From NCBI RefSeq assembly GCF_005938105.1, contig NZ_VCPE01000003.1, positions 62,001-126,000 of the forward strand: a stretch of DNA of 64,000 nucleotides. Reading direction: 5' to 3'. The notes under the pieces are model-generated. The model saw only the letters and a program-made list of their open reading frames with translations, ran no database searches and was not told the DNA's origin. The translations under genes and the position numbers were made by a program. Positions 45,095 through 61,222 of the stretch are shown here, in pieces. The first letter of the stretch is position 1; every line of letters starts with the position of its first letter. The stretch comes from Brucella haematophila. Lineage in GTDB: Bacteria; Pseudomonadota; Alphaproteobacteria; Rhizobiales; Rhizobiaceae.

Positions 45095-46078
45095 CTAGCG
45101 GTAACCGGTGGCCAGCGTCCGAACATCGGCAATATAACGCTTCAGGCGTTCAACATTGTCCGGCAACTCCTGCCGCGTTGCGGCCCAGCCAACATAGGTC
45201 AAAGCACGCAGCAACAGAAAAAGCGGCAGATGTACAAATTCTGCGGCCATCTGCGGCCTGAAAGCCGCATAGCCTTCGAGCAGGCTGGCACATAGATCGT
45301 CATAATCAGCTTCGCGCCGGCTTCTCAACAGCACTGTCGCGAGATCGAACAGGCGAAACCCGAAGCCGCAATCATCGAAATCGATAAACGCGACAGACCC
45401 GTTTTGAATAAAGACATTTTCGCGTACCAGATCAGCATGGATAAGCCCGTAATCAATCGCCGGAGCCAGCCCGGCCAGCTGTATCAACAGAGTTTCCCGC
45501 AGTACGGTCAAATATGTGCGGTCACTATCATCCACCGCAACGCAATCCCAAAAGCGTCCCCAAAATGGCGCTTCGCCTAATAATCCCGAAACATCCCAGG
45601 CGGGGCGCTCAAAATTCTTCGGTCGGTCAAACCTGTCAGCAGCCTCATGCATTCGTGCCATTTCAGAACCTATGGCGCGAAACACATCCCGCATGTCTCT
45701 CCCTTGGCGCATGAGCGGTACGCCGCTTTCCCCAAGCGGTTCGCCCTCAACCCAGCCTATGAGATCGACATACAGCGTCAGGCCACCATTCGCGGGCAAA
45801 GCGACAAGTGGTGCGCCCCCTGATGACGGAAGCGGTTGTGGCACCGTGATGCCGCATTTACCGAGGTCAGCCATCCAGTCAAGTTCCGACACCAGCGCCT
45901 GACGGGAATGATAGCCAGGACGATGCAAGCGCAATGCTGCGCGGTCACCATTTGGGAGAATAACTTTGAACACCGCATTCTCGCGATATTTCAGTAATTG
46001 CGGCGTTTGATCCGGCAAGTTCCAATGGGCGCTGGCGACCGTCGCCCGCCTGGTCAACGCCTCTATCATATCAGCCAT
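45095..46078 (-). CDS. APH-fold small-molecule kinase (hydroxylysine/ethanolamine-kinase-like)
   Basis: A 327-residue protein kinase-like phosphotransferase. The catalytic loop is YGLIHADLVRENVF (HxDxxxxN) and the metal-binding motif FIDFDDCGFG. The fold also includes homoserine kinase II and mammalian hydroxylysine kinase. Three bases separate it from a class-III enzyme gene resembling amino-alcohol-phosphate phospho-lyases. That pairing suggests it phosphorylates an amino alcohol whose phosphate the partner then eliminates. Antibiotic resistance is unlikely from context. Last gene of the minus unit. Confidence 0.85.
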   Translation of the reverse strand: MADMIEALTRRATVASAHWNLPDQTPQLLKYRENAVFKVILPNGDRAALRLHRPGYHSRQALVSELDWMADLGKCGITVPQPLPSSGGAPLVALPANGGLTLYVDLIGWVEGEPLGESGVPLMRQGRDMRDVFRAIGSEMARMHEAADRFDRPKNFERPAWDVSGLLGEAPFWGRFWDCVAVDDSDRTYLTVLRETLLIQLAGLAPAIDYGLIHADLVRENVFIQNGSVAFIDFDDCGFGFRLFDLATVLLRSRREADYDDLCASLLEGYAAFRPQMAAEFVHLPLFLLLRALTYVGWAATRQELPDNVERLKRYIADVRTLATGYR

Positions 46079-46081
46079 AGT

Positions 46082-47365
46082 TCACAGCCCGCTCAAAACA
46101 TCATCAAGAGCCGAGAGCATCAAATCGGCGTTTTCTTTCGAAAACGGCAGAGGGGGCCGGATTTTGGTGACGTTCTGGTGTATCCCCAGTTTGCCCATCA
46201 ATACGCCGCGCTGACGCATTTCATTGATGACCCGTGTCGCGACTTCCGCAGCCGGGGTCTTTTCCAGGCGATCAAGCACCAGTTCCGCACCGAAAAACAA
46301 ACCACTGCCCCGCACATTGCCGATGAGGGTATGTTTCTCAGCCAGCATCTGAAGTCCCTGTCGTGCATAAGCTCCGATGACACATGCGTTGGCCTGCAGT
46401 TGTTCGTCCTCCAGTACATCGAGGACCGCCGCGGCTGCCGCACAGGATACGGGGTTGCCACCAAAGGTGTTGAAATAGCGAAAAGCCTTGCGAAAAGCGT
46501 TCAGCGTGTCAGAACCCGCAACCACGGCGCCGACAGGATGCCCGTTAGCCATCGGCTTACCGAGCGTCACCACATCCGGCACGATGCCCGCCTTCTGATG
46601 ACCCCACATATGCGTACCCGTACGGCCAAAACCAGGCTGTACTTCGTCGGCTATAACGAGACCTCCGGCCTTTCTGACCGCTGCAACGGCAGATGCGAGA
46701 AAACTGTCAGGCAGATCGGGAAAACCTTCATTGGCAAAAAACGGATCTATGATCAGAGCCGAGAAGCCAAAAGGACTGTCCTGCAATGACGCAATGGCTT
46801 GTTCCACCTGATAGGCCCATGCCTTGGCAAAGGCCTCATCTGGCTCTCCGCCGAGGGGGCGATAAGCATCTGGTGCCGGGACATGACGGACATGACCGCC
46901 AAAACCACCAACCGGCGGCATCCGGGTGGACAGTTGGGACACGGCAGTCGTGTTCCCATGATAGGTAAAGTCAGTCGCGATAACACCGGTTTTGCCGGTC
47001 ACGGCCTGCGCCATGCGCAGCGCCACATCGTTCGCTTCGCTGCCGGTGCAGGTCAGGATCGCCGTGTTGAGGCTCGGGTCAAAGGTCGCGGTCAGTCGGT
47101 CAACATAGTCGAGAATGCCTTCATGCAGATAGCGTGTATGCGTGTTGAGCGTCGAAGCCTGCCGATAGATCGCCTCGACGACACGCGGGTGGCAATGACC
47201 GACATGGGGCACATTGTTGTAGCAATCGAGATATTGCCGACCATCGGCGTCCCACAGCCACACACCCTCACCCTTCACCAGATGTACCGGGTCGTTGTAG
47301 AAGAGTGACATGTTACGCCCAAGCAACTTCTCGCGTCGCGCGAGCAGGTCTCGTGTTCCACTCAT
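46082..47365 (-). CDS. Class III PLP enzyme, phospho-lyase-like (AGXT2L family)
   Basis: A 427-residue fold-type I PLP enzyme. The N-terminus (LLARREKLLGRNMSLFYND, then CYNNVPHVGHCHPRVVEA and NTHTRYLHEGILDY) closely follows ethanolamine-phosphate and 5-phosphohydroxylysine phospho-lyases, which release aldehyde, ammonia and phosphate rather than transaminate. The PLP Lys is in TLGKPMANGHPVG. It sits between an APH-fold kinase gene and an omega-aminotransferase gene. Aminotransferase activity cannot be excluded from sequence alone. Confidence 0.85.
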   Translation of the reverse strand: MSGTRDLLARREKLLGRNMSLFYNDPVHLVKGEGVWLWDADGRQYLDCYNNVPHVGHCHPRVVEAIYRQASTLNTHTRYLHEGILDYVDRLTATFDPSLNTAILTCTGSEANDVALRMAQAVTGKTGVIATDFTYHGNTTAVSQLSTRMPPVGGFGGHVRHVPAPDAYRPLGGEPDEAFAKAWAYQVEQAIASLQDSPFGFSALIIDPFFANEGFPDLPDSFLASAVAAVRKAGGLVIADEVQPGFGRTGTHMWGHQKAGIVPDVVTLGKPMANGHPVGAVVAGSDTLNAFRKAFRYFNTFGGNPVSCAAAAAVLDVLEDEQLQANACVIGAYARQGLQMLAEKHTLIGNVRGSGLFFGAELVLDRLEKTPAAEVATRVINEMRQRGVLMGKLGIHQNVTKIRPPLPFSKENADLMLSALDDVLSGL

Positions 47366-47366
47366 C

Positions 47367-48725
47367 TCACTGGCCCTTCGCAGCGGTCAGACCCGCATCC
47401 AGTGCAGAAACAATACGGCTTACATCCTTGGCAGAAATGATGAGTGGTGGCGAAATGATGACATTGGCGCCCGACGTGCGCACCATAACGCCTTCATCAT
47501 AAGCCACTTCATATACCTTCTGCACGATATCCTTCGCGGCGGCACTTTTCTTCGTACGGTTGGAAACTAGCTCCAGCGCCGCCATGAGGCCCCGACCGCG
47601 CACGTCGCCAACCAGTTCATGTTTTAACTTTAGCCCCTCAAGTCCCGCCAGCAACTCCGCTCCGCGCACCGCTGCATTGGCAGCAGTATTGATCCGCGCC
47701 GTTTCCTTCAGCGTTGCCAGTGCTGCTGCCGCCCCAACCGGGTGACCGGAATAGGTATAACCATGGCCGATAGCGCCGAAGGAATCCTTGTTGTTTTCGA
47801 AGGCGGCAGCCACCTTGTCGGAAATCATCACGGCTCCAAAAGGAAAATAGCCGTTGGTAATGGCCTTGGCGGTGGTCATCATGTCAGGCTTTACGCCCCA
47901 TCCACGCGAGCCGGTCCATGCGCCGGTACGCCCGAATGCACAGATGACTTCGTCGGCAATCAGCAGAATGCCGTGCCGGTCACAAATCTCCCGCATCGCA
48001 GGCATGAAGCTCTCATGTGGCACGATAACGCCACCTGCTCCCAGCACGGGTTCCATGATGAAAGCGGCAATCGTATCCGCCCCCTGAAATGCAATCTCGT
48101 CTTCGAACTGCCGCGCAATTGCAGCAGCGAGTTCCGAAGGATCCGTCATATTGAACGGATTGCGGTACGGATATGGCGCTGCGAGATGGAACACACCTGG
48201 CAAAAGCGGTTCGTAATTCCGACGGAAGTTGGCATTTCCGTTGACCGATGCACCGCCGAAATGCGTGCCGTGATAACCCTTCTTCAGGGCAAAGAACTTG
48301 GTGCGCTCCGGCTGCCCGTTAATCTTGTGATACTGCCTGGCCAGACGCAGTGCCGTCTCGACCGAGTCAGAGCCGCCCGATGTGAAAAATGAGCGGCTCA
48401 AGCCGTCTGGTTTGAAGAATTCAGCCAGTTCATAAGACAGTTCGATCAGCGGTGAGTTCGTCGTACCGCGGAAAGTCGAGTAATAAGGCAATTCATTGAG
48501 CTGGTCTTGGATCGCCTTTTTCACCGGTTCACAGGAATAGCCAAGATTGACGTTCCAAAGCCCTCCAACAGCATCCAGCACCTTCTTGCCGTGGATATCC
48601 ACCACTTCGACACCTTCGCCCGAATTGATGATGCGAGGCGGCTTGGCCTGCATTTCGGCAGGATGCGCCATGGGATGCCAGAGGTGGCGGGCATTGTTTT
48701 CGATCAGAAAATTGGAGTCGCGCAT
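47367..48725 (-). CDS. Omega-amino acid / polyamine:pyruvate aminotransferase family protein
   Basis: A 452-residue class III aminotransferase. The ATG at 48725 has GAGG six bases upstream; the frame is open to 48767. LYNVNLGYS-like DAVGGLWNVNLGYS and YYSTFRGTTNSP match the putrescine/taurine/beta-alanine:pyruvate group. The PLP Lys is in TTAKAITNGYFPFG. It would turn a terminal amine into an aldehyde, which the aldehyde dehydrogenase at 53196 could oxidise. One base separates it from the next gene of the unit. Confidence 0.88.
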   Translation of the reverse strand: MRDSNFLIENNARHLWHPMAHPAEMQAKPPRIINSGEGVEVVDIHGKKVLDAVGGLWNVNLGYSCEPVKKAIQDQLNELPYYSTFRGTTNSPLIELSYELAEFFKPDGLSRSFFTSGGSDSVETALRLARQYHKINGQPERTKFFALKKGYHGTHFGGASVNGNANFRRNYEPLLPGVFHLAAPYPYRNPFNMTDPSELAAAIARQFEDEIAFQGADTIAAFIMEPVLGAGGVIVPHESFMPAMREICDRHGILLIADEVICAFGRTGAWTGSRGWGVKPDMMTTAKAITNGYFPFGAVMISDKVAAAFENNKDSFGAIGHGYTYSGHPVGAAAALATLKETARINTAANAAVRGAELLAGLEGLKLKHELVGDVRGRGLMAALELVSNRTKKSAAAKDIVQKVYEVAYDEGVMVRTSGANVIISPPLIISAKDVSRIVSALDAGLTAAKGQ

Positions 48726-48735
48726 AGATATCCTC

Positions 48736-49380
48736 TTATATTCCAAGCATGGTGAGTGCCCGCGCATAGGCTTCCGCGGGCCGGGTCACATCGAAATGCA
48801 CATGGGGGAGACCGACAGCTTCCGCCCCTTCAATATTCTTCTTCTGGTCGTCAACGAACACGCAATCGGCGCGGTCTATATTCAGCTCGGCCAGCACCTG
48901 TTCATAGGCGCGTGGATCGGGCTTCAGAACCTTGGTGTAGGTTGCATCCACGATCACATCGAAAAGCTCAATCAACGGAAAGCGCTGACGAAATTCGACA
49001 CCGTAAAAAAGGTCGAGTTCGTTTGACAATATGGCGAGTTTGATGCCTTCCTGCTTCGCCTTGACAATGCTTTCGCGGGCTTCTGGGCGCAAAACCAGAT
49101 CAGGCTCGGCACCGCGCGCGCGTCGAACGAATGTCTTCATCTCCGTCCAGTCTTCGCCAAGCAATGCGCCAACCTCTCGCGTGCGTATTTGCCAGTAGTC
49201 GCGCTCGGTAATTTCCCGCGCCTGCATCGACGCCCATAGTGGATCGGTCGCAATATCGAACGGCCCACGCCAGCTCAGTGTCCCCGGCGCAAGGCCGAGC
49301 GCCCTTTCGGTCACGTCATGGGTCTCAAACAAAGTCCGCGTCACCACGCCGCCAAAATCGAGAATGAGGGCCTTGTTCAT
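48736..49380 (-). CDS. HAD family hydrolase
   Basis: A 214-residue haloacid-dehalogenase-like hydrolase. Motif I reads LILDFGGVV, the variant with Gly at the second Asp position seen in glucose-1-phosphatase-like members. Motif II Ser lies in LAILSNELD, and motif IV in CVFVDDQKKN. The ATG at 49380 overlaps the stop of the Tm-1-like gene (ATGA). Probably a small-molecule phosphatase, fitting a pathway with phosphorylated intermediates. Confidence 0.88.
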   Translation of the reverse strand: MNKALILDFGGVVTRTLFETHDVTERALGLAPGTLSWRGPFDIATDPLWASMQAREITERDYWQIRTREVGALLGEDWTEMKTFVRRARGAEPDLVLRPEARESIVKAKQEGIKLAILSNELDLFYGVEFRQRFPLIELFDVIVDATYTKVLKPDPRAYEQVLAELNIDRADCVFVDDQKKNIEGAEAVGLPHVHFDVTRPAEAYARALTMLGI

Positions 49381-50633
49381 GCAGCATTGCCTTTCATAAC
49401 GATGCCTTGCTCCACCCAACGATCGAAGACTTCCAGTGCTCTCGCCGCAAAATCGGGGGTATTGATATGCGCGTCGACTTCTTCAAGAGCCACCGCTGCC
49501 GGTGCGACCTTGCGCATCTCATCCAGAAATGCCCTGAGTGCCTCCGGCTCATGTAGGGGTTCGCCATGACGGTCCCATTCCTGAACGCCGCCAGAGGGCA
49601 GCATGAAAGCAACCGGAGCCACAGCACTTTCAAGCTTGGCGGCAATGACACGGGCCACTTCCCGCCGCTGTTCCGGTGCTACTGTAACCGAAGCGATCAA
49701 CCGGTTATGGGCATGATAAGGCCGACCGTCGAATGCCTTCGGCGCACGCTGCCACGCTGGAACGTCAACCATATCGACGGCACCTGGTGCGACAATCTGG
49801 GGAATTCCGGCGCGACCGGCATTTTCCATTCGGTCTGGTCCGGACGTGACAACAGATCCGCTATGCGCGTTGGTTACTTCCTGTATGCAAAAATCAAATA
49901 CCGCAACAAAGCCACCCTGCGCCGCCACGGCTTCAAAAGCCCGTCCGCCCATGCCCGTCGCATGAAAGATTGCAACGTCATAACCTCGCTTTTCGAGTTC
50001 CGGCTTTAGAAAGCGCATATATTTCAGACAGGACGAACCAAGCGAGGTCATCCCGATCAATGGTCGATTACTATTGGGCTTTTCCGTCATCTTCGCTGCA
50101 CCAACCACCGCGCCACAGGCCTGTGACAAAACCGACCGGCAGATGGGGTTCAATCCGTATAGGCCACCAGCCCACAAGATCATCATCAAATCCGGTGCAA
50201 TGCGTTCAGGTGGAAGAAGATGGGAATAAGCAATCGTAGAAACAATGAATTTCGGCACACCAAGCGGTAGAATAGCAGCGATATCGAGGGCGAGATCAGT
50301 GCCTAGCGATCCACCGAGCGCAATCATTCCGTCTACCTGCCCCATAGCAGAGAGCTCGCGAACCAGACGGGTCGCCCCTTCAGCCATCAAAGCCATGGCA
50401 CTATTTTCATCACCACTGTCGATAATCGCCTGTATGGTCGTGCGCGCGGCCTGCGCCACATCATGCTTGGAGTGATCCGGTGTGTAGGTAGGGTCTCCCA
50501 GAATGCTGACATCGATCATTACAGGAATGCCGCCTGCATCTTCGATGACCCCTGCCATGAACAGGAGTTCGTCGCTTTTGGTATCTCCGGTGCCAATGAC
50601 GATAATCCGGGGGGAACAGGCATTCACACGCAT
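49377..50633 (-). CDS. Tm-1-like ATP-binding domain protein (UPF0261)
   Basis: A 418-residue protein of the UPF0261 family. The N-terminal half matches the ATP-binding domain of the tomato Tm-1 resistance protein (IVIGTGDTKSDELLFMAGV, MIALGGSLGTDLALD). The C-terminal half is a TIM-barrel-like domain (LIGMTSLGSSCLKYM, IFHATGMGGRAFEA). Biochemical role in bacteria is unknown; members often lie in catabolic operons. Its start overlaps the IclR stop (TGATG), so it is the first structural gene of the minus unit. Confidence 0.9.
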   Translation of the reverse strand: MRVNACSPRIIVIGTGDTKSDELLFMAGVIEDAGGIPVMIDVSILGDPTYTPDHSKHDVAQAARTTIQAIIDSGDENSAMALMAEGATRLVRELSAMGQVDGMIALGGSLGTDLALDIAAILPLGVPKFIVSTIAYSHLLPPERIAPDLMMILWAGGLYGLNPICRSVLSQACGAVVGAAKMTEKPNSNRPLIGMTSLGSSCLKYMRFLKPELEKRGYDVAIFHATGMGGRAFEAVAAQGGFVAVFDFCIQEVTNAHSGSVVTSGPDRMENAGRAGIPQIVAPGAVDMVDVPAWQRAPKAFDGRPYHAHNRLIASVTVAPEQRREVARVIAAKLESAVAPVAFMLPSGGVQEWDRHGEPLHEPEALRAFLDEMRKVAPAAVALEEVDAHINTPDFAARALEVFDRWVEQGIVMKGNAA

Positions 50634-51418
50634 CAGCCATTCCTCTTCATAGGACCGGAGAGACCTGCTTGACGGCGTTCGCCGAACAGCGCGGCAGCGA
50701 TCGCTTCGGCCGCATGTAATGCTGCGGCTCCATGCTGTTGCACCACCGCATCATCTGCCCTGACGAGCGGCGCTGCCACGGTTATGCAGCCGACCGGAGA
50801 ACCGGTTGGAGCCAGAATCGCTGCCGATGTACTGACCACGCCGGCCTCCATGCCCTGTCGGTTGACAGAAAACCCTTTTATGCGTGTTTCTCTCAAAAGA
50901 CGCCGTACACCCAGAGCATCAACAACCGTGAATTCCGTGTAGGTTTCCAATGCTTCAGACAAAGCCACATTTATTGCTTCGTCTGAACAGGCGGCCAAAT
51001 AAGCAAGGCCCGACGCCGTCGCGTGGTAGGGCAAGATGGTACCCACATTGACGAACACACGATGCGCACGCGGAGATTCTTCGACATGAACGGTTGAAAG
51101 TCGCCCGTTGGAAAATTCGGACAGATGGACCGTTTCGCCAGTCTGTTCAGCAAGTTCTTTCACAAAAGAAAGAGCGGTACCGAGAAACGGATAGCGCGCC
51201 TCACGAATGCGGGCCAACCGTAAAGGCTCCGCGCCGATGCGATATTTCCGGCTCTCTGGAAGCTGCTCGACAAACCCGTGTTTCTCCAGATTAACCAGAA
51301 AACGGCGCGTCGTTGCTTTGTCATAGCCACAGGCCTGGGCGATCTCAGTCAGACCGGCATCGGCATTCAACCGCGACAAAACATCAAGAAGTGCCAAAGC
51401 TTTGCTGATAGTGCTCAT
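50633..51418 (-). CDS. IclR family transcriptional regulator
   Basis: A 261-residue IclR regulator. The ATG at 51418 follows GAGGAGA; the frame is open to 51457. HTH: LTEIAQACGYDKATTRRFL; effector domain from about residue 80. It starts the minus-strand unit and is divergent from the APC permease. The palindromes GGTTCA-N5-TGAACC at 51564 and 54878 are its likely binding sites, which would also make it autoregulated. Confidence 0.92.
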   Translation of the reverse strand: MSTISKALALLDVLSRLNADAGLTEIAQACGYDKATTRRFLVNLEKHGFVEQLPESRKYRIGAEPLRLARIREARYPFLGTALSFVKELAEQTGETVHLSEFSNGRLSTVHVEESPRAHRVFVNVGTILPYHATASGLAYLAACSDEAINVALSEALETYTEFTVVDALGVRRLLRETRIKGFSVNRQGMEAGVVSTSAAILAPTGSPVGCITVAAPLVRADDAVVQQHGAAALHAAEAIAAALFGERRQAGLSGPMKRNG

Positions 51419-51563
51419 TGTCGTTCTCCTCATACCAAGCTCTAGGTCAGCCAGCACGCTTTGCAGCTACGCCTCTTTGGGCGCTTCACATGACCTAGAT
51501 ACTTAACATGAGAAATAACTTGACAGAAAGCCGAACCGCTTGCAAGTCTATATTTGAAGCACT

Positions 51564-51580
51564 GGTTCATATATTGAACC
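51564..51580. promoter_or_regulatory. IclR-type operator 1 (GGTTCA-TATAT-TGAACC)
   Basis: A perfect palindrome with 6-base arms and a 5-base spacer in the divergent gap between the IclR gene and the APC permease gene. The same arms and spacing recur at 54878. A TTGACA hexamer starts 44 bases upstream (51520), as it does 43 bases upstream of site 2. Confidence 0.8.
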
Positions 51581-51680: not shown

Positions 51681-53144
51681 ATGACAACAACCACTGAACC
51701 GTCTTCGCAAGCCGATCAATCGGCGAACCAATTACGTAAGAACAGCCTCGGTGTCGCGGCTGTAACTTTTCTCGTCGTCTCAGCAGCAGCGCCATTGACC
51801 GCCGTTGCAGGCGGCGTGCCATTGTCAATGCTTCTGGGAAATGGTGCGGGCATACCGCTCACCTTTCTTCTGGTCACGATTGTCCTTTTGATGTTTTCTG
51901 TCGGCTATGTTGCGATGGCCAGACACATCCGCAATGCCGGAGCATTCTATGCATTCACGGCGCAGGGACTGGGCGGGTTGATGGGGGGCGTTGCCGCCCT
52001 TCTCGCAATCCTGGCCTATAATGCCATGCAGATCGGCGTGTTCGGCCTCTTCGGCGCGGCAACGGCCGGGTTTCTGGCCAGCTTCGGCATCGATCTTCCC
52101 TGGTGGGCATGGACCTATATCGGTATTGCTGCTGTAGCGGTACTCGGCTATCGCCGAGTCGATCTTTCGGCACGGGTGCTGACAGTTCTCGTCGTGCTCG
52201 AATATGTCGTGGTGCTTATCATTGACGCGGCCATTCTCTTCACCGGTGGCGACAGCGGTCTTTCCATCACGCCCTTTACGCCGTCGGCCTTTCTGAGCGG
52301 CACACCCGCCATTGGAATCCTGTTCTGTTTTGCTGCCTTCATTGGCTTTGAAGCCACCACGATCTATAGCGAAGAAGCCCGTGATCCAGCTCGCACCGTA
52401 CCGCGTGCAACCTATATTTCCGTGCTGATGATCGGCCTGTTTTATATGCTCACCTCATGGCTCATGGTTAGCGGCGCAGGTGCCCACAAACTGGTGGGCG
52501 AATTGCAGGGACTTCAGGATCCGACCACCTTCCTCTTCGGCCTTGCAGAGAGATATGTCGGCCACTGGATCATACCGGTTATGAACCTGCTCTTCATTAC
52601 CAGCCTGTTTGCGGGTGTCGTTGCCTTTCACAATGGCGTTGCCCGTTACATGTATGTTGCAGGTCGCGAAGGTCTGTTGCCTGCCCGCCTTGGCACAACG
52701 CATTCCCTCTATCAGAGCCCCCATATTGGCTCGCTGGTGCAGACGGTTATCGCGTTGCTTGTGGTGACAATTTTCGCTGCCACAGGACAAGACCCGGTAC
52801 TGGCGCTCTTCTCCTGGCTGACCAATGTCGGCACACTTGCAATCATGCTGCTGATGACCTTCACCGCCTTCGCCATCATAACCTTCTTTGCCCGTCATCC
52901 CGGACTTGAAAATAGCGTTATGACCACACGGATTATGCCGCTGATAACAGGTACTGTCCTCGGCATTCTGGTCATTTATATCGCACTGAATTTCGGCAGT
53001 ATCGCTGGTGCCAACGGCATTATGGCCATTATCCTGCCGGGGCTGGTGCTTGTTGCTGCTGTCATCGGGCTGTTGCTTGCCATGAGGCTCAGGACCAACA
53101 ATGCAACCGGCTTTGCCCGTCTTGGTGCCGGTCAGATCGTCTGA
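51681..53144 (+). CDS. APC family amino acid/amine permease
   Basis: A 487-residue, 12-helix amino acid-polyamine-organocation transporter. The first helix region (VAAVTFLVVSAAAPLTAVAG) carries the small-residue turn of the fold, and TIYSEEARDPARTVPRATY marks the loop after helix 6. Inner-membrane uptake of an amino acid or amine. It lies behind operator 1 and is followed 51 bases later by an aldehyde dehydrogenase gene. Confidence 0.9.
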   Translation: MTTTTEPSSQADQSANQLRKNSLGVAAVTFLVVSAAAPLTAVAGGVPLSMLLGNGAGIPLTFLLVTIVLLMFSVGYVAMARHIRNAGAFYAFTAQGLGGLMGGVAALLAILAYNAMQIGVFGLFGAATAGFLASFGIDLPWWAWTYIGIAAVAVLGYRRVDLSARVLTVLVVLEYVVVLIIDAAILFTGGDSGLSITPFTPSAFLSGTPAIGILFCFAAFIGFEATTIYSEEARDPARTVPRATYISVLMIGLFYMLTSWLMVSGAGAHKLVGELQGLQDPTTFLFGLAERYVGHWIIPVMNLLFITSLFAGVVAFHNGVARYMYVAGREGLLPARLGTTHSLYQSPHIGSLVQTVIALLVVTIFAATGQDPVLALFSWLTNVGTLAIMLLMTFTAFAIITFFARHPGLENSVMTTRIMPLITGTVLGILVIYIALNFGSIAGANGIMAIILPGLVLVAAVIGLLLAMRLRTNNATGFARLGAGQIV

Positions 53145-53195: not shown

Positions 53196-54674
53196 ATGCA
53201 AGACAAGATCGACGCTCTCGGCCAGCAAAACATCGCACCACAATTGCTGTTTATCGACGGGCGATGGCAATCCGCTATAGATGAAGCCACGATGGCGACT
53301 ATCTCGCCTATCGACGGCCAGCAGCTGACCAGTCTGGCAGCTGCGGGAACAGTTGATGTGGATCGCGCCGTGACGGCTGCTCGCCGTAGCTTCGACAAGG
53401 GCCTGTGGTCAAGGGCCTCCCCCGCCGAACGAAAAAAGGTGTTGTTAAAGATCGCCGAACTGATCGAAAAACACGCACTTGAACTTGCGGTACTTGGAGT
53501 ACGCGACAACGGCACCGAGATCTCGATGGCGATCAAAGCCGAGCCGGGGAGTGCAGCGAACACGTTCCGCTACTACGCGGAAGCCATTGACAAGGTTTAT
53601 GGCGAGATCGCCCCGACTGCAGAAGATGTGCTCGGCCTCATCCACCGCACGCCCGTTGGCGTAGTGGCCGCGATCGTGCCCTGGAATTTTCCGATGATGA
53701 TCAGTGCATGGAAAATTGCGCCGGCTTTGGCCGCTGGTAATTCAGTCATTCTCAAACCAGCCGAAGGTGCGTCGCTCACGCTGCTCCGTCTTGCTGAACT
53801 ATGCGCTGAAGCGGGGCTGCCGGAAGGCGTTTTGAATGTTGTGACCGGTGCAGGCGCGATCACGGGTGAGGCACTTGGGCTACACAACGATATCGATGTT
53901 CTGGCCTTTACCGGATCAGGACATGTCGGTCGCAAACTGCTCGAATATTCAGCCCGTTCGAACCTGAAACGGGTCTATCTGGAGCTTGGCGGCAAATCGC
54001 CGAATATCGTATTCGCCGATGCACCCGACCTTGACCGGGCAGCAAAGGTCTCCGCTTACGGAATATTCCGTAATTCGGGTCAGGTATGCGTTGCCGGATC
54101 GCGATTACTGATTGAGCGCTCCATTGCAGAGGAGTTTGCAGAACGCGTGAGCGCAATTGCTGGCGTCATGAAACTTGGCAACCCGTTGGACCTCGCCACC
54201 GAGGCCGGCGCTATCTCCAGCGAGGTGCAGCTGGGCAAAAATCTCGGTTTCGCCGCGCAAGCGCTATCGGAAGGTGCACGACTGCGAACCGGGGGTAATC
54301 GTATTCTGGAAGAAACTGGAGGTTATTACATGCAACCGACTGTCTTCGACGTGACCCCTGACATGACGCTAGCCCGTGAAGAAGTGTTCGGCCCCATTCT
54401 TGCGATCATCCCTTTCGACAAGGAAGACGATGCGTTGAAAATCGCCAATGACACAAGCTATGGCCTCGCTTCAGCGGTATGGACCTCCAGTCTGTCGCGT
54501 GCGCACCGCATGGTTCGTAATATTCGAGCCGGGGTAGTACACGTCAACACATATGGTGGCGCAGACAATTCTGTCCCGCTGGGAGGCGTCAAGCAGTCGG
54601 GCAACGGTCACGACAAATCACTGCACGCGCTGGATAAATATATAGATCTGAAAACGGCCTGGATTCAACTTTGA
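53196..54674 (+). CDS. Aldehyde dehydrogenase (PuuC/KauB-like)
   Basis: A 492-residue NAD(P)-dependent aldehyde dehydrogenase. Cofactor block PWNFPMMISAWKIAPAL, catalytic Glu in LELGGKSP and catalytic Cys in NSGQVCVAGSRL are all present. Overall style matches the gamma-aminobutyraldehyde/guanidinobutyraldehyde group of amine catabolism. It would oxidise the aldehyde made by the aminotransferase or phospho-lyase encoded in the divergent unit. Confidence 0.93.
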   Translation: MQDKIDALGQQNIAPQLLFIDGRWQSAIDEATMATISPIDGQQLTSLAAAGTVDVDRAVTAARRSFDKGLWSRASPAERKKVLLKIAELIEKHALELAVLGVRDNGTEISMAIKAEPGSAANTFRYYAEAIDKVYGEIAPTAEDVLGLIHRTPVGVVAAIVPWNFPMMISAWKIAPALAAGNSVILKPAEGASLTLLRLAELCAEAGLPEGVLNVVTGAGAITGEALGLHNDIDVLAFTGSGHVGRKLLEYSARSNLKRVYLELGGKSPNIVFADAPDLDRAAKVSAYGIFRNSGQVCVAGSRLLIERSIAEEFAERVSAIAGVMKLGNPLDLATEAGAISSEVQLGKNLGFAAQALSEGARLRTGGNRILEETGGYYMQPTVFDVTPDMTLAREEVFGPILAIIPFDKEDDALKIANDTSYGLASAVWTSSLSRAHRMVRNIRAGVVHVNTYGGADNSVPLGGVKQSGNGHDKSLHALDKYIDLKTAWIQL

Positions 54675-54743
54675 ATCCAAATTGCCTCGGACAGCTCCAA
54701 GTGCACTGATCCAAGGCAGTTCAATCGACAACGCATTGAGAGG

Positions 54744-54766
54744 CTGGGTAAACGCGCCTTACCCAG
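54744..54766 (+). terminator. Hairpin after the aldehyde dehydrogenase gene
   Basis: CTGGGTAA (54744-54751) pairs perfectly with TTACCCAG (54759-54766) around a 7-base loop, 70 bases after the stop codon. No T-run follows, so it is at best a weak or factor-assisted terminator separating the APC-ALDH unit from the next promoter. Confidence 0.4.
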
Positions 54767-54877
54767 TACTCCATTGCCAATTTGTGGGCATCTCAAAGTA
54801 AACCTCCAACCTTTTATTTAACGTGTGAATTATCTTGACACACTTAAATCCGGGCGGCACTCTAATAGTGAATAGCA

Positions 54878-54894
54878 GGTTCAAATAATGAACC
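54878..54894. promoter_or_regulatory. IclR-type operator 2 (GGTTCA-AATAA-TGAACC)
   Basis: The same palindrome as at 51564, 16 bases before the amidohydrolase ATG. Only the 5-base spacer differs. Its closeness to the start codon suggests it overlaps the transcription start, fitting repression. Confidence 0.8.
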
Positions 54895-54910
54895 CAAAGG
54901 GAACATCAGC

Positions 54911-56569
54911 ATGACAGTGACGCGACACGCAGACCTCATTCTCACTGATGGCCGTATCTATACGATCGACGCTTCACGCCCCTGGGCGCAGGCCATTGCA
55001 GTCGCGGATGGGAAGATACTTGCTGTCGGCAGCGTGTCTGAAATCGAGTACTATCGAACAGACACAACCGAGGTCATCGATCTCGAAGGCCGCATGGTGA
55101 TGCCGGGCTTTGTTGATGTACACAACCACATCATGATGGCTGGCCAGGCAGAACTGTTTGAAACGCAGTTGCCCAAAGGCGCAACTATCGACGACATTTG
55201 CGCCCATGTACGCGAGCAGGCGAAATCTGCTGCACCTGGTCAATGGATTATCGCCAATCAATGGGGCGCGGACATGATCGCCGTGCTCAATACCAAGGAA
55301 GCATTGCAAAAACTTGATGCTGCCAGCCTCGGCTATCCAGTATTGTTACGTGATGAAACCATGCACAACCGCTGGATCAACAGCGTTGCAATGCACCTGT
55401 CTGGCATCAACGAGCACCAACCGGATCCGCCTGCTGGTGCTTTCGGAAGAGACCCGGCGACCGGTCGATTGACCGGACTACTGGTTGAATCTGCAGCAGG
55501 TATTGTTGAACGGGTAGCGGCAAGCCATTTCACCGAAGCCATGGGCGAAGCCGCAGTCATACGCGCGGTCGAATTGGCCAATTCCTATGGCATCACCGCC
55601 TTTCAGGATGCCGCCTCGGTGCAGCCGGTTCTGCAAGCGCTCACAAATCTCGATAACAAGAACAAGCTGACAGCCTGGGCTGTCACGTCCCTTCCCTTAA
55701 TCGAACCGTCATTCATGTTCGGGCTTTCCGGTGATGAGCTTCTTGCGGTGCGCGAACATTATCGTACCCATCATGTGCGGCCGAACTTCACCAAGATTTT
55801 CCTCGATGGCGTGCCCGGTGCACGTACCGGGGCGTTTCACGACGCTTATTTGAACGACGACGCTCACCCCCATGGTTATAGAGGAGAAACGCTCGTCAGC
55901 TATGCCGATCTGGTCAAATATATCGACAGATCGGAAATGCTTGGCATGGGACTAAAGATCCACTGTGCCGGAGACTTTGCAGTCAGCGAAATGCTGGATG
56001 CCGTAGAGGCTGTGCGCTATTTCAAGGGGCCGGCAAAGGTCCTGCATCATATAGCGCATGCAAGCTATATCCGCCCACAGGATATCGAGCGCTTTGCAAA
56101 ACTCTCGGTGGTCGCCGACCTCTGCCCGATGATTTGGTACCCGACCACCTTTCTTGAGGGCCACAAGGCAGCCATGGGCGAAGAGCGGGCATCGCGGTTC
56201 TGGCCTATAGCCGATCTCCATCAGTCTGGCGCACTTCTGGCAGGCGGCTCCGACTGGCCGGTTATTCCTGTACCCGACCCATGGACCGGTATCGAAGGAA
56301 TGGTAACCCGGCAAAATCCATCCGGCGCGTTTCCAGGCGTTTCGCTTTGGCCCGAACAGGCCATCGATCTGGCCACCGCGATCAAGATATTCACGCTCAA
56401 TTCAGCAACCGCGATGGGTATCGCGGAACAGACCGGGTCTTTGGAGCCCGGCAAGTCGGCAGACCTGATCATTCTCGACCAGAATGTCTTCGATGTCCCG
56501 ACCAATCAGATCGCCAGCACCAAAGTTCTGACCACCTTCTTCGAAGGGCGAGCCGTCTATCAGCGCTAG
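54911..56569 (+). CDS. YtcJ-type amidohydrolase
   Basis: A 552-residue metal-dependent amidohydrolase of the YtcJ / N-substituted-formamide deformylase group. DVHNHIMMAG carries the HxH metal ligands, KIFLDGVPGART and KIHCAGD further ligand positions, and GSDWPVIPVPDPW the conserved Asp. No signal peptide, so cytoplasmic. Such enzymes split N-formyl or N-acyl amines. Behind operator 2 and directly before the ABC transporter genes, it may release the amine used by the rest of the pathway. Confidence 0.88.
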   Translation: MTVTRHADLILTDGRIYTIDASRPWAQAIAVADGKILAVGSVSEIEYYRTDTTEVIDLEGRMVMPGFVDVHNHIMMAGQAELFETQLPKGATIDDICAHVREQAKSAAPGQWIIANQWGADMIAVLNTKEALQKLDAASLGYPVLLRDETMHNRWINSVAMHLSGINEHQPDPPAGAFGRDPATGRLTGLLVESAAGIVERVAASHFTEAMGEAAVIRAVELANSYGITAFQDAASVQPVLQALTNLDNKNKLTAWAVTSLPLIEPSFMFGLSGDELLAVREHYRTHHVRPNFTKIFLDGVPGARTGAFHDAYLNDDAHPHGYRGETLVSYADLVKYIDRSEMLGMGLKIHCAGDFAVSEMLDAVEAVRYFKGPAKVLHHIAHASYIRPQDIERFAKLSVVADLCPMIWYPTTFLEGHKAAMGEERASRFWPIADLHQSGALLAGGSDWPVIPVPDPWTGIEGMVTRQNPSGAFPGVSLWPEQAIDLATAIKIFTLNSATAMGIAEQTGSLEPGKSADLIILDQNVFDVPTNQIASTKVLTTFFEGRAVYQR

Positions 56570-56623
56570 CCGTTTCATGAAACCTCTCCCGATGCATTGC
56601 GGGCAAATAAAAAAGGGAACAGC

Positions 56624-57805
56624 ATGCAATCGACCAGAAACCTCCTTCTCGCTTCAGCGGTAATATTGTCAGGCATGTGGGTTTTCGCCGGGGAGGCCGA
56701 GGCTTCCCCTTCCTGTGAAAATGGCCCCATCCAGATAGGCGCAGTTTCCACGATAACGGGCGTAGTCGATTTTTCCGATGCTCCCAAAGCGGCGGCGGCC
56801 GTCTTCGAGCAGCTTAACGCTGCCGGAGGTATCAACGGCTGCAAGATTGACTACACCATCGCCGACGATAAGGGCGATCCACAGGTCGCAGCCCAGGCTG
56901 CGCGCGATCTGATTGACAACAAATCTGTTGTTGCCCTGTCCGGGGGCGCAAGTCTGCTCGATTGCGCCGTCAATGCGGCCACCTACAATCGAAATGATGT
57001 GCTGGCGATACAAGGCGTCGGCGTCGATCCACTGTGTTTTAATGCTCCCAGCATCGCGCCTGTGAATGTCGGCCCCTACACTTTGACGACAGCCATGCTC
57101 GATTATGCGGCAAAAAATCTGGGTGCTCAGAAACTCTGCGCTTTTTTCCTCGTCATTGGCGGCACACAGGAGGCCTATGCCGCAGCCGTCACGCGCTGGG
57201 AGAAGATCAGCGGCAAGAAGATCGCCCTCAGTGACATGACCTTGCCTGCACAAGGTGATCTCACCCCCTATCTCATCAAAGCTCGCAACGCTGGATGTGA
57301 TACGGTCTTGACCAACCAAGTCGAGCCAGGTGTCGTTCAATGGGTGAAGACCGCCGACGCACAGAAGATCAGCGGTATGAACTGGCTGTTTCTTGCTCCC
57401 GGCTATACGGAGGGAGTCGCCAAAGCGCTCGCCGATAGCAAGCAGCCAATCTATATCGGCACCGAATGGGAGCCTTATACCGAGGCTACCGACGCCAATG
57501 CCGACTGGATCAAGACAATGGACGCGGCTGGCCTGCCCAAAACCGCTTTCTCGCAAGGTGGCTTCCTTGCCGCAAGAGCACTTATCGACACCATCTCAGG
57601 CATTGATGGCGAGGTCACGCGCGCGAGTGTAACCGCCGCGCTTAAATCCGGCAAGGAATTGCATTATGCCATGGCAGGCAGTCCTTACGTCTTCGGCGAA
57701 GCCAAAGCACACGCGCCAATGCAAGCCACCAAGGTCATGCAGCTCGAAGCGGGTAAGTGGACGGTAAAGACCAACGATTGGTTCTCGCTACCAAAAGCGG
57801 AATAA
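56624..57805 (+). CDS. Branched-chain-type ABC transporter substrate-binding protein
   Basis: A 393-residue LivJ-like periplasmic protein. The ATG at 56624 follows AAGGGAA and opens a signal peptide (core LLLASAVILSGMWVFAG, cleavage about residue 27). The mature protein opens with PIQIGAVSTITGVVDFSDAPKA in the usual style. Family ligands are amino acids, amides and urea. It follows the amidohydrolase gene by 54 bases, so its ligand may be that enzyme's amide substrate. Confidence 0.9.
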   Translation: MQSTRNLLLASAVILSGMWVFAGEAEASPSCENGPIQIGAVSTITGVVDFSDAPKAAAAVFEQLNAAGGINGCKIDYTIADDKGDPQVAAQAARDLIDNKSVVALSGGASLLDCAVNAATYNRNDVLAIQGVGVDPLCFNAPSIAPVNVGPYTLTTAMLDYAAKNLGAQKLCAFFLVIGGTQEAYAAAVTRWEKISGKKIALSDMTLPAQGDLTPYLIKARNAGCDTVLTNQVEPGVVQWVKTADAQKISGMNWLFLAPGYTEGVAKALADSKQPIYIGTEWEPYTEATDANADWIKTMDAAGLPKTAFSQGGFLAARALIDTISGIDGEVTRASVTAALKSGKELHYAMAGSPYVFGEAKAHAPMQATKVMQLEAGKWTVKTNDWFSLPKAE

Positions 57806-57940
57806 TCGAGACTGTTTGAACAGCAGGATGTTCTTTTCCGGCTCTTTCGAGAACCGGACGACCGCCGCCGCAAGTACCGCGACAGGCATACCGTTATTCA
57901 TCGTTCGGGCTTTGTGCCCGACTGTTTTGGGGTTCCAGCC

Positions 57941-58810
57941 ATGAGCTCTCTTCTCACAGCTGCAGTAGCCGGATTATCGGCAGGTGGCGCTTATGCGATC
58001 CTTGGCGTCTGCGCCATCTTCACTTATCGGCTGGTTGCCGTGGTAAATTTTACGGGCGCTGCAATAGGTGCCATCGGGACATTCGCGATGGTCAGCCTGT
58101 TCGAAACGGGTGTGCCATTGCCACTCGCGGTTGCCCTTGGCATCGCAACTGGTGTGCTTGCAGGTGTCATGATCGGCATCGTCATGACCACCTGGTTTGC
58201 CAACGCCAACGCCTCAACCAAAGCGGCGGTAACCGCAGCGCTTCTCGTTGGCATCATAGCACTGGGGCTACGTTTCACCGGTGGTCAGCATCCCCACTAC
58301 TTTCCCGCTGTGATACCCGGTTCAGCCTTTCGTCTGGCGGGGGTCGAAGTTACATGGGCTGCTGTCACAATGCTGCTGCTTGCCCTCGTCTTCACGGTTG
58401 CAACCGAACAATTCCTGGCTCGCACGCGCACAGGCCTTCAGCTCCGCGCACTGTCGCAACGCCCCATGGCCGCTGAACTCATCGGCATCCGGGTGCGCCT
58501 GCTGGCGCTTGGCGTCTGGGCGGTCACCGGCGCTGTGACATCCTTCGCCTTGATGGTGATAGCGCCATTGCGTTCCCCAGATTTCTCATCTCTCAGCCTT
58601 CTGGTCGTTCCAGCGCTGGCCGCCGCCCTGATCGGCGCTTTTTCAAGCTTCCGCGTTGCACTCATTGGTGGCGTGATGATTGGTGTGCTGGAAGGCATGG
58701 TCAGTGCGATGGGTTCCATCGGTCAATATCGCAGCACCGTTCCATTTCTGGTCATTCTGGCCGTCCTTTTGTGGTCGCAACGAGGAGCCCGTTGGGATGA
58801 AGCACGCTAG
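57941..58810 (+). CDS. Branched-chain amino acid ABC transporter permease (LivH type)
   Basis: A 289-residue permease with about eight hydrophobic segments. The start MSSLLTAAVAGLSAGGAYAI is chosen over an upstream in-frame codon at 57914 because it begins the LivH pattern. EAA-like loop: TRTGLQLRALSQRPMAAELI. The last bases overlap the next gene by 14. Confidence 0.9.
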   Translation: MSSLLTAAVAGLSAGGAYAILGVCAIFTYRLVAVVNFTGAAIGAIGTFAMVSLFETGVPLPLAVALGIATGVLAGVMIGIVMTTWFANANASTKAAVTAALLVGIIALGLRFTGGQHPHYFPAVIPGSAFRLAGVEVTWAAVTMLLLALVFTVATEQFLARTRTGLQLRALSQRPMAAELIGIRVRLLALGVWAVTGAVTSFALMVIAPLRSPDFSSLSLLVVPALAAALIGAFSSFRVALIGGVMIGVLEGMVSAMGSIGQYRSTVPFLVILAVLLWSQRGARWDEAR

Positions 58811-60521
58811 TTTTCACGCCATCATCATCGTTTTGTCCCTGGCAGCGCTCGGCGCGCTTGCTCTGGCTCTCCTGCCCAAATACTGGATATTCCTGATTAC
58901 GGCGGTCTTCATCGTCGGCATTGCACTACAAAGCCTCGGTCTCGTCACGGGTCGAACAGGTATGATTTCACTGTGCCAAATGTCCTTCGCCGGTGTAGGA
59001 GCCTGGGTTACCGGTTATCTCAACCTGATAGAAGCACCGGGCGGATTGATCGTCTGGGTCTTGATTGGCGGCCTGGCAGCCGTGCCTGTAGGAATTGCGA
59101 TCGGCCTTCCCGCGCTCAGGTTGCGCGGTATCAATCTCGCCATTGTCACACTGGGTTTTGCCGCGGCTTTTGACACAGTACTCGCAACCATCACCTTTCC
59201 GGGTCAGACGAGTTTTACCCAGGTTGCCCGCCCCGATATTTTCACCTCGGACCAGGGCTACTTCTTGCTTGTCTTGCTGTTTTACACGGTCATCGCAGTT
59301 CTACTGGAATTCATTGGTCATTCCCGACTTGGTTCCTCCTGGCTTGCAGTACGCTATTCCGAACGTGCCGCTGCCGCCAATGCGATCAGCGTGCCACTTG
59401 CCAAACTCAGCGCCTTCGCTATCAGTGCCTTCATATCAGGTATCTCTGGCGGCCTTCTTGCAGGGTATCTGGGCACGCTCGTTTCTGAAAATTTTTCGAT
59501 GATGCAATCATTGGCGTTATTTGCAGTTGCGACAATGACGGGTGCCCATTTCACGATGGGAGCCATTATTGGCGGCATCCTTATCGTGCTTTTCCCAGAG
59601 CTGTTACGTCGTATCAATCTACCACAGGATGTCGGCAACGTGTTCTTTGCGCTCGGAGCCGTACAAGCCTTGTCGACCGGCGAAACAATAGCCCAAACCT
59701 GGTCGAGGCTCGGGCGCAAACTGATTTCCCGCAAGAACAGGCAACCAGAACCATCCAGTGCTCAAACCCTGCCGAACGCCACGTCGCGGAGTGCACAAGG
59801 AAACACCGGTACAGCGCTTGAAGTGCGTGACCTTACCGTGCGTTATGGAGCAGTCACGGCACTGGATGGGGTTAACATTACAGTACCGGCGGGTGCTGTC
59901 ATTGGACTCGTCGGGCCAAACGGCGCCGGGAAATCCACACTGGTCGATGCCATCGCCGGTTTCCTGCCTCGATACGACGGCGCCGTCCTCTTGAACGGAA
60001 GCTCACTGGAAGGGCATTCCGCAGCATCACGCGCGCAAAGGGGTGTCCGCCGTACGTGGCAGACCACACGCATAGCTCCTGAACTGCGGATCGGTGAATA
60101 TATGCGGCTGGCGGCTGGTCCCATTGCGCAAAACGAGGTTGAAAGCCTGCTTGCCTGGTTTGGTTGCCCCGGCCCGGATGTTACCATCGGCTCAGTTGAC
60201 GTGGGAACGCGCCGCCTGATCGACGTAGCGGGAGCAGTCGCGTCACGGGCGCCCGTTATCTTGCTCGATGAACCGGCAGCCGGCATCTCTTATGACGAGG
60301 CGCTGAAACTTGGCCAGCGCATCGCTGCCATCCCTGCAACATTTGGCAGTTCGATATTATTGATCGAACATGACATGGACCTTGTGCGCAATGCCTGTTC
60401 ATCAATCACGGTCCTCGACTTTGGGCGCGTCATCGCCAGTGGCGCAACCGCTGAAGTTCTAGATCTACCCTCCGTCCAGAAAGCCTATATGGGCATCGAT
60501 TTTGAAGAGGCTGCCGAATGA
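58797..60521 (+). CDS. Fused ABC permease-ATPase (LivM-LivG type)
   Basis: A 574-residue fusion. Residues 1 to about 315 are a LivM-type permease (helices from HAIIIVLSLAALGALALAL; EAA-like SERAAAANAISVPLAKL region). A linker of about 35 residues leads to a LivG ATPase with Walker A GPNGAGKST and Walker B VILLDEPAAG. The signature LSGGQ is replaced by SVDVGTRRLIDVAGAVASR, a divergent form without the usual SGG. Start at 58797 overlaps the LivH gene; LivF follows with an ATGA overlap. Confidence 0.88.
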   Translation: MKHASFHAIIIVLSLAALGALALALLPKYWIFLITAVFIVGIALQSLGLVTGRTGMISLCQMSFAGVGAWVTGYLNLIEAPGGLIVWVLIGGLAAVPVGIAIGLPALRLRGINLAIVTLGFAAAFDTVLATITFPGQTSFTQVARPDIFTSDQGYFLLVLLFYTVIAVLLEFIGHSRLGSSWLAVRYSERAAAANAISVPLAKLSAFAISAFISGISGGLLAGYLGTLVSENFSMMQSLALFAVATMTGAHFTMGAIIGGILIVLFPELLRRINLPQDVGNVFFALGAVQALSTGETIAQTWSRLGRKLISRKNRQPEPSSAQTLPNATSRSAQGNTGTALEVRDLTVRYGAVTALDGVNITVPAGAVIGLVGPNGAGKSTLVDAIAGFLPRYDGAVLLNGSSLEGHSAASRAQRGVRRTWQTTRIAPELRIGEYMRLAAGPIAQNEVESLLAWFGCPGPDVTIGSVDVGTRRLIDVAGAVASRAPVILLDEPAAGISYDEALKLGQRIAAIPATFGSSILLIEHDMDLVRNACSSITVLDFGRVIASGATAEVLDLPSVQKAYMGIDFEEAAE

Positions 60522-61222
60522 CCTGTTTTTCAGTCAAGGCATTGCAGGTCGACCGTTCGGGCATTCCGGTAATTCGCGGTGTAGATCTGAGGGTGCAAAG
60601 CGGTGAAATCAGCGTGTTGCTGGGTTCCAATGGCGCCGGTAAAACAACCTTCCTTGAGAGTTTATCCGGCATCATATCAGCACGAGCCGGTTCGATCAGC
60701 ATCGGTGACGCAGAGCTGACCAAACTAAGGCCGGGCTTGCGAACGAAGGCTGGCCTGAGCCATGTCGAACAGGGACGCACCGTCTTCTCGGACATGACAA
60801 CGGAAGAAAATCTCAAGGTTGCTCTACATCCAGTTGCAGATTTGAACGAGGCCTATGAACTGTTTCCAGAGCTTGTTCAGCGACGCGACGTCAAAGCGGG
60901 CATGCTATCAGGCGGTGAACAGCAGATGGTGGTGATTGCGCGCTCCATCGTCAATCGGCCGAAGGTTATGCTGATCGATGAAATGTCATCCGGTCTGGCG
61001 CCCGTCATCGTCAATCGGCTCATGCGCGCCGTGAGACAACTTGCTGATAACGGCATGGCGATCATACTGGTGGAACAATTTGCGGCACTCGCGCTTTCCA
61101 TAAGCAATCATGCATATGTCTTGCGTCGCGGGCAGATCGTCTATGATGGTAGTAGTGAAGTCCTCGCCAAAGACCCCGCCCGGCTTCACAAGCTCTATCT
61201 GGGTGACGCCACTTCAAGCTGA
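60518..61222 (+). CDS. Branched-chain-type ABC transporter ATP-binding protein (LivF)
   Basis: A 234-residue ATPase with Walker A GSNGAGKTT, signature MLSGGEQQMVVIARSI, Walker B VMLIDEMSSGLAP (Met where most have Pro) and the LivF-type VEQFAALALSI H-region lacking a His. ATGA overlap with the fused permease-ATPase. It completes an importer of binding protein, LivH, LivM-LivG and LivF. Confidence 0.92.
   Translation: MTCFSVKALQVDRSGIPVIRGVDLRVQSGEISVLLGSNGAGKTTFLESLSGIISARAGSISIGDAELTKLRPGLRTKAGLSHVEQGRTVFSDMTTEENLKVALHPVADLNEAYELFPELVQRRDVKAGMLSGGEQQMVVIARSIVNRPKVMLIDEMSSGLAPVIVNRLMRAVRQLADNGMAIILVEQFAALALSISNHAYVLRRGQIVYDGSSEVLAKDPARLHKLYLGDATSS

Follow-up and report, generated by a model that had tools for sequence, protein, structure and literature searches.

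Kinases paired with pyridoxal phosphate (PLP)-dependent phospho-lyases, and routes that lead from tyramine to the homoprotocatechuate (hpa) pathway, are each already known as a kind. Hydroxylysine kinase with the phospho-lyase PHYKPL, and the enzyme ETNPPL, were reportedly described by Veiga-da-Cunha et al. in 2012, and the lyases are said to convert an amino-alcohol phosphate to an aldehyde, ammonia and phosphate. A tyramine and dopamine catabolon of Pseudomonas putida U was reportedly described by Arcos et al. in 2010. Here we analyse a gene set in a 64,000-nucleotide stretch of the Brucella haematophila genome (NZ_VCPE01000003.1, positions 62,001 to 126,000; hereafter the window), in which a transaminase, a kinase, a phospho-lyase relative and a UPF0261 protein are encoded behind an IclR-type gene. 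We consider it reasonably likely, from gene families, putative operators and neighbourhoods in relatives, that this set is an IclR-controlled regulon for the catabolism of phenolic or catecholic biogenic amines. The gene identities, the phospho-lyase clade, the common operator sequence and the association with hpa genes are established by computation. The union of both known kinds in one operator-defined regulon, together with UPF0261 and a predicted route for beta-hydroxylated aromatic amines, was not recognised as previously described in the open-licence literature, which is no proof of absence.

The set shares with the hydroxylysine kinase–PHYKPL/ETNPPL systems the same type of class-III PLP phospho-lyase following a kinase step, but differs in being a bacterial regulon tied to hpa genes, with a substrate that is probably aromatic. 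The P. putida U catabolon leads from an aromatic amine through 3,4-dihydroxyphenylacetate to ring cleavage, as is proposed here (the likeness is drawn without gene comparison), whereas deamination in our case would use a transaminase together with a kinase–lyase branch. A kinase, an aminotransferase-like enzyme, an aldehyde dehydrogenase and a permease also occur together in RMM/Aut microcompartment loci (6ef6; available parts of PMC4207490 and PMC6620236), which have a GntR rather than an IclR regulator and lack the aromatic context. Membership of a microcompartment was rejected, given that a Pfam scan, which covered the 13 set proteins alone, found no shell family. The available part of PMC6620236 calls the PLP partner of the kinase in microcompartment loci an aminotransferase, so that the reclassification presented below may matter beyond this locus.

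A phospho-lyase relative and its kinase

The initial annotation proposed that the PLP enzyme at 46082–47365 is kin to phospho-lyases, and our comparisons agree: judged by its sequence, it is a phospho-lyase relative and not a transaminase. Its best matches among solved structures are the phospholyase 5g4i (7e-125) and ETNPPL (6tor, 1.5e-106), followed by a dialkylglycine decarboxylase (8e-59), and its closest named relatives are a Rhizobiales record (98% identity) and Hyphomicrobiales bins and Shinella, Ensifer and Rhizobium records (83–90%). In a 47-protein tree, with 5g4i and 6tor as phospho-lyase references and PHYKPL not included, the enzyme falls in a 31-row group with 5g4i, ETNPPL and a fused kinase–peptidase–lyase of its own genome (Shimodaira–Hasegawa-type approximate likelihood-ratio support, SH-aLRT, 99). 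Outside this group are the transaminase of the window and nine further class-III enzymes encoded in the same genome, two of which gave no family match at the limit used. An approximately unbiased (AU) test on a 32-row alignment, from which the two longest-branch rows were omitted, rejected the joining of nine core lyases to eleven transaminases (p-AU 0.0002). On tree placement and this test, a transaminase identity for the protein was rejected.

The lysine that we take to bind PLP, K270 within a GKP motif, is kept in the window enzyme. Also present are YNN 49–51, R78, GKP, K401 and R403, residues that are conserved across 80 lyase-clade rows and rare among 19 others in a larger, quicker tree. 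A distant relative (L080, 37% identity) lies outside the clade in that quicker tree and forms its deepest branch in the 47-protein tree. The closest solved lyase, 5g4i/5g4j, presumably the Arthrobacter enzyme A1RDF1, belongs to the same clade as the window enzyme, but A1RDF1, ETNPPL and five other comparators lack residues such as F295-R296 that 22 hpa-linked lyase rows share. The fused protein of the same genome (L090, contig C3, 103290–104486) groups with ETNPPL; we take it to be a kinase–M23 peptidase–phospho-lyase, a domain reading that follows the PRK06148 model.

The kinase has an APH fold, and its nearest solved relative is 6ef6, titled aminopropanol kinase, from a microcompartment. HxDxxxxN and DFDD motifs are present, which we assume to be the catalytic and metal-binding motifs of the fold. 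Loci of relatives (L numbers) were collected in one pattern-based scan that favours close relatives (89 relatives found, 80 kept, 79 named loci). Loci encoding the transaminase at no less than 58% or UPF0261 at no less than 50% identity were called core, giving 39 core and 40 non-core loci. A kinase homologue (at least 30% identity) accompanies the lyase (at least 55%) in 62 of 69 named loci and is present in all 39 core loci, counted per fetched stretch without a distance limit. The pairing of kinase and lyase, also put forward in the initial annotation, is supported.

Pairs of kinase and lyase were also seen elsewhere. In twelve loci without the core (L045, L046, L048, L050, L051, L053, L055, L057, L059, L062, L063 and L064) the pair adjoins a gene family with an RF-1 domain. 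In L030, L041 and L042 a homogentisate dioxygenase lies within about 9 kb of the pair, and L041 and L042 also encode a decarboxylase and a HpaI-like aldolase.

Core set, separable modules and a shared palindrome

Distribution was surveyed in 249 genomes of the order, with identity limits that were set after viewing the match lists: at least 50% for UPF0261 (next match 36%; 83 of 249 genomes match at E 1e-40), at least 69% for the lyase (next match 55%; 36 of 249 match at E 1e-120), and at least 57% for the amidohydrolase (homologues at 46% and 41%, in genomes without the core, were dropped). The transaminase (E 1e-180; at least 66%) and the UPF0261 type were found in the identical 14 genomes, from five families. 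Gene order recurs in part in Rhizobiaceae, Phyllobacteriaceae, Rhodobacterales and one gammaproteobacterial bin, and together with the shared 14 genomes this indicates that the set exceeds chance; relatedness among the genomes inflates all P-values given here. The lyase occurs in six genomes, all within the 14, and the amidohydrolase in four, again all core, of which only the genome of the window also has the lyase at its limit.

The core consists of IclR, UPF0261, transaminase, aldehyde dehydrogenase and a transporter, mostly with the HAD hydrolase. The transporter slot is filled by an APC permease or by TctCBA, the latter mainly in Rhodobacterales loci such as L033. Kinase plus phospho-lyase, and amidohydrolase plus Liv importer, are separable modules joined to this core, which was not foreseen in the initial annotation. 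Within one genus, kinase and lyase are present in L140 and L141 and absent from L131–L133. The amidohydrolase–Liv cassette occurs with the core and without kinase–lyase in L134/L159, with kinase–lyase and without the core (in the fetched stretch) in L016 and L026, and with short-chain dehydrogenase/reductase (SDR) genes and a divergent class-III PLP enzyme in L160 and L161. A CobW gene adjoins the amidohydrolase in L134, L160 and L161, a neighbour that fits a metal-dependent hydrolase. The divergent PLP enzyme and SDR genes (L160, 4177–6372; L161, 6894–9109; L134, 13511–15870), with the same operator in L160 and L161, are perhaps an alternative route for a hydroxylated amine.

The two divergent units of the window share a palindrome, GGTTCA-N5-TGAACC, which reads GGTTCATATATTGAACC in the gap between the IclR and permease genes and GGTTCAAATAATGAACC ahead of the amidohydrolase gene. 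The 5.5-Mb genome contains exactly two perfect copies, both in this set. Given that these are the only two, both units are probably under one IclR regulator, as the initial annotation had supposed in treating them as a single regulon, and we infer that the IclR protein binds the palindrome. At one mismatch or fewer, two sites were found in the window against 0.11 expected; elsewhere in the genome there are 13 one-mismatch sites (three for a reversed-pattern control). A promoter scan found fewer promoter-like sites than in shuffles (5 versus 10.2). Neither a grouping of the PLP enzyme with transaminases nor a lack of co-regulation between the units was found, and these were the counter-indications open to sequence analysis.

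The palindrome recurs in relatives. Among 52 distinct IclR upstream regions, which are related and so not independent events, 26 have a perfect site and 34 a site that is perfect or off by a single base; the maxima for 179 permuted half-sites were 0 and 2, respectively. Twelve further genomes were scanned. In the nine that carry the core, 11 perfect sites were counted, one or two per genome. Nine of these stand at a unit of the set or, in three genomes (G105, G248 and G229), by a sister IclR gene accompanied by a divergent PLP enzyme; the remaining two are elsewhere. One of the three scanned genomes without the core has a single perfect site. Ahead of the amidohydrolase, the operator is perfect in L002, L006, L026 and L159 and has one mismatch in L016, and in L016 and L026 it sits in a gap of more than 250 bp shared with IclR. 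No operator was found directly ahead of the amidohydrolase in L160, L161, L164 and L165; in L160 and L161 it stands at the head of the gene run that contains this gene. The site is also absent upstream of the IclR genes of L131–L133, which have the core without kinase–lyase.

Aromatic context and candidate substrates

In relatives, the set is adjoined by genes for HpaE, HpaD and HpaI, all with model scores over cut-off, and by a HpaB-2-like protein (758 of 885 bits), a HpaG-like protein that stays under its cut-off and a flavin reductase for which RutF outscores HpaC. HpaE or HpaD is encoded in the fetched stretches of 21 of the 39 core loci versus none of the 40 non-core loci. In 13 core loci the set has hpaB/hpaC on one side and hpaE on the other, and L034, L038, L131, L140 and L159 have hpa genes on other sides or strands; with several such arrangements, the association is not a single inherited accident. 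HpaD exceeds its cut-off in 33 of the 249 genomes: all 14 with the core and 19 of the 235 without it (Fisher 2.9e-14, with no correction for relatedness). In 10 of the 14 its gene shares a contig with the transaminase gene and is no more than 25 kb away.

Annotated plasmids present the same picture. In records of Rhizobium leguminosarum and Agrobacterium tumefaciens, hpaR, CHMI, hpaE, hpaD, hpaH and hpaI are annotated downstream of the kinase. The R. leguminosarum ATCC 14479 plasmid has hpaBC-like genes on one side of the set and hpaR to hpaI on the other, the A. tumefaciens CFBP7129 plasmid has hpaR to hpaI only, and a Shinella sp. PSBB067 plasmid has its hpa genes on the opposite side. Each of the three stretches contains one perfect operator.

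A group-II PLP decarboxylase is the second clue. Its best matches are DOPA and tyrosine decarboxylases (best solved relative DOPA decarboxylase, 6e-116), and a homologue is found in 15 of 39 core loci, 1 of 40 others and the Shinella record. Any aromatic marker (HpaE, HpaD, HpaB, the decarboxylase or homogentisate dioxygenase) was found in 29 core loci and one other. Because of this hpa and decarboxylase context we place the substrates in the class of aromatic amines; it suggests aromatic biogenic amines such as tyramine and octopamine. The initial annotation had named ethanolamine, hydroxylysine and polyamines among the compounds to test; the context does not support them as favoured substrates. 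We regard its interpretation overall as partly supported.

We infer every substrate and reaction, and the roles of UPF0261 and the HAD hydrolase, from family chemistry and genome context. The APC permease would import the amine, and the omega-transaminase would convert amines of the tyramine or dopamine type to arylacetaldehydes. For amines of the octopamine, noradrenaline or phenylethanolamine type, the APH kinase could phosphorylate the beta-hydroxyl, and the phospho-lyase would then eliminate phosphate and ammonia to give the same arylacetaldehyde. Elimination requires amine and phosphate on adjacent carbons, and these three amines meet that requirement. Activity on synephrine carries the number EC 4.2.1.88. 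The aldehyde dehydrogenase would yield (di)hydroxyphenylacetate, which would enter the homoprotocatechuate meta-cleavage pathway. The amidohydrolase and Liv operon may take up N-acyl conjugates, potentially including plant hydroxycinnamoyl amides, and free the amine; such amides of tyramine and octopamine are a known N-acyl amine source (available part of PMC12158696). Of the earlier scheme of amide to amine to aldehyde to acid, the outline thus fits the gene content, and amide import and hydrolysis stay conjectural.

The UPF0261 protein is 28–31% identical to tomato Tm-1 (3wry) and to Saro_1862 (9mpy), which have the same two-domain fold. The entry title for Saro_1862 names acetovanillone, a 4-hydroxyphenyl ketone, as the bound ligand, and this fits a phenolic ligand for UPF0261. 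Neither UPF0261, Tm-1 nor Saro is mentioned in the available part of a paper on acetovanillone (PMC9618137). The structural model of the UPF0261 protein has a mean predicted local distance difference test score (pLDDT) of 81 and aligned with a root-mean-square deviation (rmsd) of 10.4 over 389 residues, so that we claim likeness of fold alone. No TIM-barrel (TBST) family was found among the set proteins scanned here, and titles and abstract openings from an open-licence literature search mention no enzymatic role for UPF0261.

We advance a more specific reading tentatively, and with less assurance than the regulon itself. In an hpa-linked regulon of rhizobia and their relatives, an undescribed phosphorylation–elimination route would deaminate beta-hydroxylated aromatic amines directly to arylacetaldehydes, UPF0261 proteins of the PRK02399.1-4 type would act on hydroxyphenyl intermediates, which would be the first role for that family, and the amidohydrolase and Liv module would open plant hydroxycinnamoyl tyramine and octopamine amides.

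Several observations weigh against a regulon for aromatic amines. No aromatic marker was found in 10 of the 39 core loci, with L002, the window's nearest relative, among them, although some fetched stretches are short. In the genome of the window itself, 288 kb separate the set from hpaF-E-D-G-H (HpaE, HpaD and HpaH over cut-off; contig C23, about 397–401 kb), which is on the same contig next to a MarR regulator. A single HpaB-family protein was found in this genome; it shows 27% identity to hpa-linked HpaB, and its gene adjoins those of two amidases. This genome may handle only catecholic amines, for which hydroxylation of 4-hydroxyphenylacetate is not needed, or may use another hydroxylase. 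In addition, even when one mismatch is allowed the operator is missing from 18 of the 52 IclR upstream regions, 23 named loci have kinase and lyase but not the core, and UPF0261, the transaminase's most tightly linked partner, has no assigned pathway step. No phenylacetaldehyde dehydrogenase model among NCBIfam models exceeded its cut-off for the aldehyde dehydrogenase, and the ligands of Tct and Liv receptors are more commonly acids and amino acids.

It is the hpa context that demotes ethanolamine, aminopropanol and hydroxylysine to rivals. The best placed alternative, which we nonetheless consider unlikely, is aliphatic amino-alcohol catabolism, in which ethanolamine or 1-amino-2-propanol would pass through acetaldehyde or propionaldehyde to acetate or propionate and the hpa neighbours would be incidental. 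The aminopropanol kinase 6ef6 as closest kinase and the presence of ETNPPL within the lyase clade agree with this, as does L052, which pairs a lyase relative with a Choline_kinase-type kinase and an aldehyde dehydrogenase; L047, L054 and L056 carry 62–77% identical kinases at the same position. A search for EutB ethanolamine ammonia-lyase (PF06751) in the genome, whose completeness is rated at 100%, found no match, so that another ethanolamine route would be useful. However, hpa genes adjoin the set in several arrangements, hpaD is in all 14 core genomes, an aromatic-amino-acid decarboxylase occurs in the same loci, and the genome already has a second, fused kinase–lyase.

It is more improbable that the set degrades aromatic amines with the transaminase doing all deamination, while kinase and lyase act on a phenolic hydroxyl or a phosphorylated damage product. 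L131–L133 have the core without kinase–lyase beside hpaBC and hpaFED(G), and phosphorylation of phenols is known in aromatic catabolism (available part of PMC9618137). Yet the lyase retains the PLP lysine and the clade-specific residues, and the kinase is of the APH-fold amino-alcohol type, whereas that paper presents HpeHI as a homologue of phenylphosphate synthase. Least probable as the substrate is a hydroxylated amino acid such as hydroxylysine or 4-amino-3-hydroxybutyrate: although the PLP enzyme stands in the ETNPPL clade (PHYKPL itself is outside the tree sample) and the set has Liv and APC (Tct in relatives) transporter families, which often carry amino or carboxylic acids, the hpa and decarboxylase context speaks against it. 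The gabD-like aldehyde dehydrogenase that two annotated plasmids carry amid their hpa genes does not decide the matter.

Gene content and implications

All reading frames of the set are open and have the expected Pfam families, which confirms the gene list of the initial annotation (Table 1). The minus-strand genes, from 51457 to 45095, overlap or are separated by a few bases. On the plus strand, permease and aldehyde dehydrogenase genes are followed by a 236 bp gap and then by the amidohydrolase and Liv genes.

Table 1. Features of the gene set, with positions in the window
Feature	Position	Strand	Evidence
APH-fold kinase, proposed amino-alcohol (beta-hydroxy-arylethylamine) kinase	45095..46078	-	APH Pfam family
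Class-III PLP phospho-lyase relative	46082..47365	-	nearest solved 5g4i, 6tor; tree; K270 in GKP motif and clade-specific residues
Omega-aminotransferase, proposed arylethylamine transaminase	47367..48725	-	NCBIfam PRK07481, 786 bits, cut-off 575
HAD hydrolase	48736..49383	-	Pfam Hydrolase 5.7e-20
UPF0261 / Tm-1-like protein	49377..50633	-	both UPF0261 domains; PRK02399.1-4, 735 bits, cut-off 556
IclR, putative regulator of the set	50633..51457	-	IclR_C and HTH_IclR; palindrome in upstream gap
Palindromic putative operator GGTTCATATATTGAACC	51564..51580	.	divergent IclR/permease gap
APC-family permease	51681..53144	+	AA_permease_2 1.4e-24
Aldehyde dehydrogenase, proposed arylacetaldehyde dehydrogenase	53196..54674	+	Aldedh 1.6e-159
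Second palindromic putative operator GGTTCAAATAATGAACC	54878..54894	.	16 bp between its end and the amidohydrolase start
Amidohydro_3 (YtcJ-type) amidohydrolase	54911..56569	+	Amidohydro_3 1.8e-87; 59% identity to L160 counterpart
Periplasmic substrate-binding protein, Liv-type importer	56597..57805	+	Peripla_BP_6 1.3e-57
LivH-type permease	57914..58810	+	BPD_transp_2
LivM-LivG fusion	58680..60521	+	BPD_transp_2 and ABC_tran in a single frame
LivF-type ATPase	60518..61222	+	ABC_tran

The HAD start is the ATG chosen by comparison with L002 (214 amino acids), the open reading frame as listed extending to 49419, and for LivM-LivG the ATG at 58797 was judged likelier by eye. Frames of comparable length to LivM-LivG occur in L134, L160, L161, L016 and L026. 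The best NCBIfam model for the aldehyde dehydrogenase is PuuC, at 573 bits below its cut-off of 850; StyD (458 bits) is also below cut-off. The omega-transaminase is nearest to 6s54 and 5lh9 among solved structures and falls among transaminases in the tree. Adjoining the set, a separate unit at 41698–45008 encodes a major facilitator superfamily (MFS)-like transporter, an SDR protein, an RbsD/FucU-family protein and a second IclR gene product. A long open reading frame at 32031–34976 resembles, by eye, a beta-barrel autotransporter.

The lyase is present in 59 plasmid records. In those of R. leguminosarum, A. tumefaciens and Shinella, both PLP genes are annotated as 'aspartate aminotransferase family protein' and the kinase as 'phosphotransferase', so that the route is invisible from gene names. 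If the proposal is true, these would be genes by which bacteria dispose of amines of the octopamine and noradrenaline type, an unnamed IclR regulon would gain a substrate class and an operator, and there would be a lead on UPF0261.

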